DNA of 64,000 nucleotides, taken from assembly GCA_004292955.1 (NCBI GenBank), contig RDXX01000039.1, positions 62,001 to 126,000 of the forward strand, read 5' to 3'. Numbering within the stretch: the first letter of the stretch is position 1; the number at the start of each line of letters is the position of its first letter. Shown here one piece after another: positions 41,839 through 42,278 of the stretch. Source of the stretch: Oscillatoriales cyanobacterium (GTDB taxonomy: Bacteria > Cyanobacteriota > Cyanobacteriia > Cyanobacteriales > Microcoleaceae). Made by a program: the position numbers and the translations under genes. Under the pieces are notes generated by a model. It searched no databases and was not told the DNA's origin. It saw nothing but the letters and a program-made list of their open reading frames with translations.

Positions 41839-42278
41839 GTCAGTAACTCAGGGAATCAACGCCACTGAGCTTGTAAGAGTAATCGAGCAAGCTGTACTGA
41901 CGGGCCTCAGACTTTCGAGGTCTACGTTATTTGAGTCAGGACACTCCTTGAATGCGACGCTAGTTTTCCGCTCTGTCGCTTGTAGTTAAACAGTCTTAAA
42001 GTCACTCTCGTCAGTGCTGCAAGCCTCACAAGCTCTTATAACATTGACCGACAAGCGAACATTACCCCGCTTTCTTAGGCTCCATCAGGAGCAAACATTA
42101 TGCGTACAGGGTTGTAAGGTTTGAGGTGGTAATTGTCCCATCGAAAGTACATTACAAAAGTACACCTGATCGAACAACCCCAAGGCGGTAATGGAAAGAT
42201 TCAAGGCGATTGAAATCGCCTGGTCGTTTTCCTCTCAGGTCTTTCATACTCTGAGTTTCCCACTTACCTAGTGTTTTT
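41839..42278 (+). ncRNA. HEARO/IscB-omegaRNA-like structured RNA, standalone (copy B), in hetR leader
   Basis: Collinear conserved blocks with 9763-10127; ends GTTTCCCACTTACCTAGTGTTTTT immediately before ATGA of hetR. Confidence 0.77.

Follow-up and report, generated by a model that had tools for sequence, protein, structure and literature searches.

HEARO RNAs, or omega-RNAs, act together with IscB in the OMEGA systems of ISC transposons, and IscB is an ancestor of Cas9. These HEARO/IscB elements are known already, and Weinberg is said to have noted in 2009 that HEAROs are inserted before ATGA or GTGA. A target-adjacent motif of the form NTGA or NTG was measured for IsrB, a relative of IscB, including its cyanobacterial orthologues (PMC9581776). 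The elements described below are like the IsrB omega-RNA systems in this motif; however, IsrB lacks the HNH domain, while the partner suggested here is an IscB that has it. In a radiation transcriptome of Limnospira, HEARO RNAs were set aside as remnants of mobility and an examination of their precise locations was requested (PMC8400943).

Non-autonomous IS200/IS605 elements (PATE or MITE-like) show another close resemblance, which lies in seamless insertion with no target duplication, in subterminal hairpins and in a strict tetranucleotide beside one end. Unlike them, the present elements contain a complete guide RNA whose guide is specific to the site, and a search around the six intact, full-length Y1 transposase (Y1_Tnp) genes of the genome brought to light no TnpA with matching ends.

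The DNA analysed, hereafter the window, is a stretch of 64 kb from a cyanobacterial genome of 7.29 Mb. Its two HEARO elements resemble the described IscB systems in the RNA core (100–140 bits), and autonomous iscB-bearing copies with related ends are present in the same genome. Unlike the autonomous element, the window copies have no iscB in cis and contain a structured RNA module instead. Most copies, also in contrast to IscB systems, lie flush with start codons of host genes, essential ones included, so that a host gene takes the downstream position of iscB.

Two elements in the window and their junctions

Scanning of the window by cmscan with Rfam 15 gave two full-length matches to HEARO (RF02033), both exceeding the curated gathering threshold of 83 bits. 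The match upstream of hetR scored 100.2 bits (E 2e-19, model positions 1–211 of 211), and that upstream of xth (9763–9978, plus strand) scored 140.3 bits (E 4e-29). The first-pass annotation had proposed this very search for what it took to be a HEARO-like element fused to the start codon of hetR with no IscB in the window. The identity of the RNA was borne out, the boundaries turned out to be exact to the base, the 3' end does abut ATGA of hetR itself, and the copy stands alone, with all iscB genes of the genome located on other contigs. The stem given there as an example (cact...agtg) is not a pairing of the family; in the Rfam model it is the bases flanking it that pair. The second copy had been rightly taken for a relative: it is a real HEARO sharing its ends with the first. 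Its own flush contact with the ATGA of xth had been overlooked.

Table 1. Features of the two HEARO elements and adjacent genes (window coordinates)
Feature	Position	Strand	Basis
Complete HEARO (omega-RNA) element of 440 nt, standalone, directly 5' of hetR	41839..42278	+	RF02033 and absence in relatives
HEARO/omega-RNA core	41839..42065	+	cmscan, RF02033
5' flank, would-be omega-RNA guide, GTTTTACTATTTCGGAGATT	41819..41838	+	Putative function, from known IscB/IsrB architecture
Structured 3' RNA module (module i)	42059..42194	+	Alignment of 22 sequences
Conserved hairpin with T-rich tail, terminator-like	42204..42221	+	Consensus scan; pattern match only
Subterminal hairpin (CTCAG...CTGAG) at the 3' end of the transposon	42234..42255	+	Sequence; other copies end alike
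ATGA, insertion motif/presumed target-adjacent motif and hetR start codon	42279..42282	+	Sequence
hetR, 301 aa	42279..43184	+	NF009718 equivalog, 583 bits
19-codon upstream ORF made by the insertion	41809..41868	+	Translation and sequences of relatives; expression putative
The other standalone HEARO element (365 nt), bearing module ii, the alternative 3' module	9763..10127	+	RF02033; end from comparison of copies
xth (exodeoxyribonuclease III, DNA repair), starting with ATGA at 10128	10128..10913	+	TIGR00195, 312 bits

Comparison of copies revealed common ends at both sides of the hetR and xth elements. The space between core and 3' end is filled by iscB, by module i, as in the hetR copy, or by module ii, as in the xth copy, module i thus taking the place that iscB has in autonomous copies. 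The 3' ends fall into two types, A and B, and either type directly abuts ATGA. The minimum-energy fold of the whole leader gave no clear excess of stability (z −1.7), and covariation was therefore used as structural evidence. Among 22 sequences of module i, 29 pairs were found with 98% of cells paired, and 9 of them showed compensatory change; their covariation was 0.277 against 0.172 in shuffled alignments (0 of 500 shuffles as high) and dropped to 0.02–0.11 when the structure was slid. The copy at xth mostly retains the Rfam consensus pairing, while several pairs are broken in the copy at hetR, which scores below most genomic copies. No promoter was detected within the hetR element by consensus scan, and a repeat search registered no inverted repeats of at least 12 bases in either window element.

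Altogether 23 HEAROs pass the Rfam cut-off in this genome, and their number varies from 1 to 38 between congeners. Degenerate HEAROs were also observed, two of them in one locus (C87) and another (C112) in front of an IsrB-like ORF that is shorter, suggesting several omega-RNA lineages in one genome.

A native upstream region free of the element is present at 28 of the 29 other congeneric hetR loci from genomes in which this locus was fetched. In the two nearest genomes, where HetR is 100% identical, the upstream region reads ...GATTGTG followed by ATGAAAAATGAC; in the window the element stands between ...GATT and ATGAAAAATGAC, and three bases (GTG) are missing. The last 16 nt of the 5' flank coincide exactly with the empty hetR site of relatives, which continues there as GTGATGAA. 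The earlier statement that the element had landed before ATGA thus describes its present position correctly but not a clean junction, as relatives have GATT-GTG-ATGA. In view of the exact agreement of this guide-length flank with the empty site, where GTGA comes next, we think that the element entered before GTGA and that GTG was lost later; an original insertion before ATGA, likewise with GTG lost, seems less likely. At xth the junction differs from the empty site by 1–3 bases of an A/T repeat. An empty site could be aligned for 17 of 19 insertions of the same genome in one or both of the two nearest genomes, and about 15 of them join base to base with no target duplication, the hetR and xth junctions being those that differ by 1–3 nt.

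The insertion at hetR is lineage-specific: it parted the native upstream region and its Shine-Dalgarno sequence (SD) from the start codon and left the HetR protein unchanged. The 19-codon ORF listed in Table 1 begins at a native ATG led by this SD (GGAGG, 41796–41800), runs in frame into hetR in relatives and meets here a stop inside HEARO. A conserved extension (MPPSFTISEIV-MKND...) that precedes hetR in frame and lies behind GGAGG is found in one Microcoleus clade; in the window it is cut off by the insertion. Altered translation of hetR would be a likely consequence. The element contains a terminator-like hairpin, and reduced read-through is therefore one possible effect. The first-pass annotation spoke of the master pattern regulator; the gene is indeed hetR, but this wording overstates its role here, because the host genus is not known to make heterocysts. 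Taken as a whole, that interpretation of the hetR element is partly supported.

Some other features were noticed around hetR. An ORF resembling patX with an RGTGR motif lies upstream (about 40980–41198) and is kept as in relatives, and a short tandem repeat of GTCAGTT directly follows the hetR stop (43184–43243). The same 64 kb contain an Rfam match to NsiR1 (49.7 bits, 56059–56116, minus strand). NsiR1 is a small RNA of nitrogen stress that is linked to HetR in heterocyst-forming species.

Start codons as insertion sites

The genome of the window and 15 Microcoleus genomes supplied the HEARO copies, which were taken with their flanks; hits were listed by score, and copies lacking a recognisable 3' end were left out. 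This yielded 100 distinct insertions with a located 3' end, 93 before ATGA and 7 before GTGA, although the full agreement with the motif (100 of 100) is partly a matter of construction, as the end finder searched for ATGA or GTGA near the end. Strictness of the motif rests, therefore, on the empty sites and on an independent scan, in which a 17-base piece of the 3' end was searched in species genomes with the motif left unspecified. All 71 cyanobacterial matches were followed by ATGA or GTGA, compared with none of the 5 matches in other phyla. This set, which partly overlaps the 100 insertions, includes Tychonema, Trichodesmium, Plectonema, Pelatocladus and Dolichospermum, and in 48 of its 71 cyanobacterial members the motif begins either a frame of 50 or more codons or a gene that is cut off.

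Among the 100 insertions, the motif codon opens a frame of at least 50 codons in 74, and 4 more precede what reads from the sequence as a real gene, short or cut off (PsaI, ribosomal L36, sqdB and the gene that follows the C68 iscB element). The background was an ORF-based estimate from a 464-kb sample of the host genome rather than a set of curated gene calls: there 158 of 753 noncoding ATGA sites (21%) open at least 50 codons, and the excess of start codons over this value has a binomial p of about 1e-29. A generous count admitting every plausible in-frame start raised the background to 395 of 990 (40%). In the genome of the window taken separately, 15 of 21 insertions qualified, or 14 if the gene following the C68 iscB element, which is cut off, is not counted (p 6e-5). 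A longer target motif was considered as the cause of this bias and rejected, as only a mild preference for A after ATGA was seen, which is too weak. Target preference, selection or a combination of the two may underlie the enrichment.

The targets include argG, fusA, rplR, rplS, tig, lysS, thrS, gatB, mnmA, secG, CP12, sqdB, heme oxygenase and gnd, with names read from N-terminal sequences; only hetR and xth were assigned by profile match. Hence hetR is no special case, as elements sit at the start codons of many genes. It was nevertheless hit at least three separate times, with no other case among the 49 genomes that have hetR. Besides the window, an element whose HEARO core is deleted has its 3' end flush with the hetR ATG in genome PH2015_01U_44_212 (contig REAP01000014), where the upstream background of hetR differs from that of the window. 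In a genome from another family of the order, a HEARO of 96 bits, cut at the contig end, belongs to an element flush with hetR (ATGAGTAAAGAC). Four further genes (sqdB, mnmA, CP12 and one more) were hit in different species by elements with different ends or modules; a rough estimate puts the number of hits expected for a single gene far below one. Two genomes that are not mutual nearest relatives share a 312-nt element in front of rplR together with its 20-nt flank, possibly an old retained insertion. The start-codon excess, the leaders of essential genes and the case of hetR are undescribed in the accessible literature, and older key papers may mention them.

Partners in trans and possible origins of the pattern

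An explanation by absence of IscB from the cell can be dismissed. The genome-wide search suggested in the first-pass annotation uncovered five iscB frames without interruption and a sixth that contains stops, all outside the window, and a possible trans-acting partner thus exists. The C68 IscB scores 465 bits on NF040563 and retains the RuvC and HNH motifs on inspection by eye; of the five omega-RNA cores linked to iscB, its own comes nearest to that of the hetR copy (82%), and its element, too, abuts a start codon, a different one. From the gene content it is plausible that IscB and Y1 TnpA serve as partners in trans.

Based on this data we consider it probable that the copies are non-autonomous IS200/IS605-like omega-RNA elements, whose insertion motif doubles as a start codon and which become the 5' leader of the gene. 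Such an element would encode an IscB-type guide RNA and no protein and would insert as a single oriented unit with its 3' end against ATGA or, less often, GTGA. As ATGA can be ATG plus one base, landing exactly between the 5' UTR and the first codon becomes possible, so the coding sequence would stay whole and acquire a new structured leader of 370–440 nt. Y1 transposase supplied in trans may move the element. IscB made elsewhere in the genome may bind its RNA, with the 5' flank as the guide, and may cut empty alleles that keep ATGA or GTGA as the target-adjacent motif, after which the element would be copied back; this part follows the motif of IsrB and the general logic of OMEGA systems. Start codons would then be favoured both because the coding sequence is spared and because the motif cannot drift: a mutation in it would harm the gene, which makes the start codon a good niche.

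That the leader is an ancestral 5' UTR of hetR with a mere likeness to HEARO is hardly conceivable. No supporting point was found for it, and the Rfam score, about two dozen copies in the genome and the native upstream regions of relatives, element-free in 28 of 29 congeners, refute it. The comparison of hetR 5' regions in sister strains, as the first-pass annotation had advised, disclosed the empty site; together with HEARO similarity and copies elsewhere, the points on which that annotation had made its reading depend, this identifies a mobile element. Much harder to dismiss, yet doubtful, is passive debris, that is, MITE-like elements entering at any ATGA or GTGA, purged from gene interiors and merely tolerated at start codons. 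The strict motif (71 of 71 in the unbiased scan) agrees with it, as does the fact that seamless insertion before ATG keeps the coding sequence intact. But at noncoding ATGA sites, where insertion disrupts no gene in the first place, frames of 50 codons or more follow in only 21% (40% by the generous count) versus 74% observed, and the separation of a promoter or SD from an essential gene should be tolerated less than an intergenic insertion.

Retention by the host is another explanation, in which the structured RNA, alone or bound to IscB, regulates translation in a scattered regulon. The preference for start codons over other noncoding ATGA sites, repeated hits on the same genes by different types of elements (hetR at least three times; sqdB, mnmA, CP12 and one more) and compensatory change in the 3' modules speak for such domestication. 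We nevertheless hold it to be quite unlikely, as sites are empty in most relatives, the target genes have no evident common function, a copy number of 1 to 38 among congeners is in keeping with a mobile element and not with a conserved regulator, and structural conservation is expected of a mobile guide RNA too. A bolder version, in which omega-RNAs fused to start codons are shared IscB-responsive leaders and IscB binding or processing controls translation of hetR and core genes, seems very unlikely; if true, it would couple the RNA-guided nuclease of a transposon to expression of host genes.

Insertion of non-autonomous omega-RNA elements at start codons, the reading that we prefer, would represent, if true, an unusual niche for a transposon and a natural source of new 5' UTRs. 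Where the motif is the start codon of an essential gene, the host could not escape re-cutting by mutating it. Natural pairs with and without the element (hetR, sqdB, mnmA) are at hand for studying how translation starts behind a 440-nt insert.
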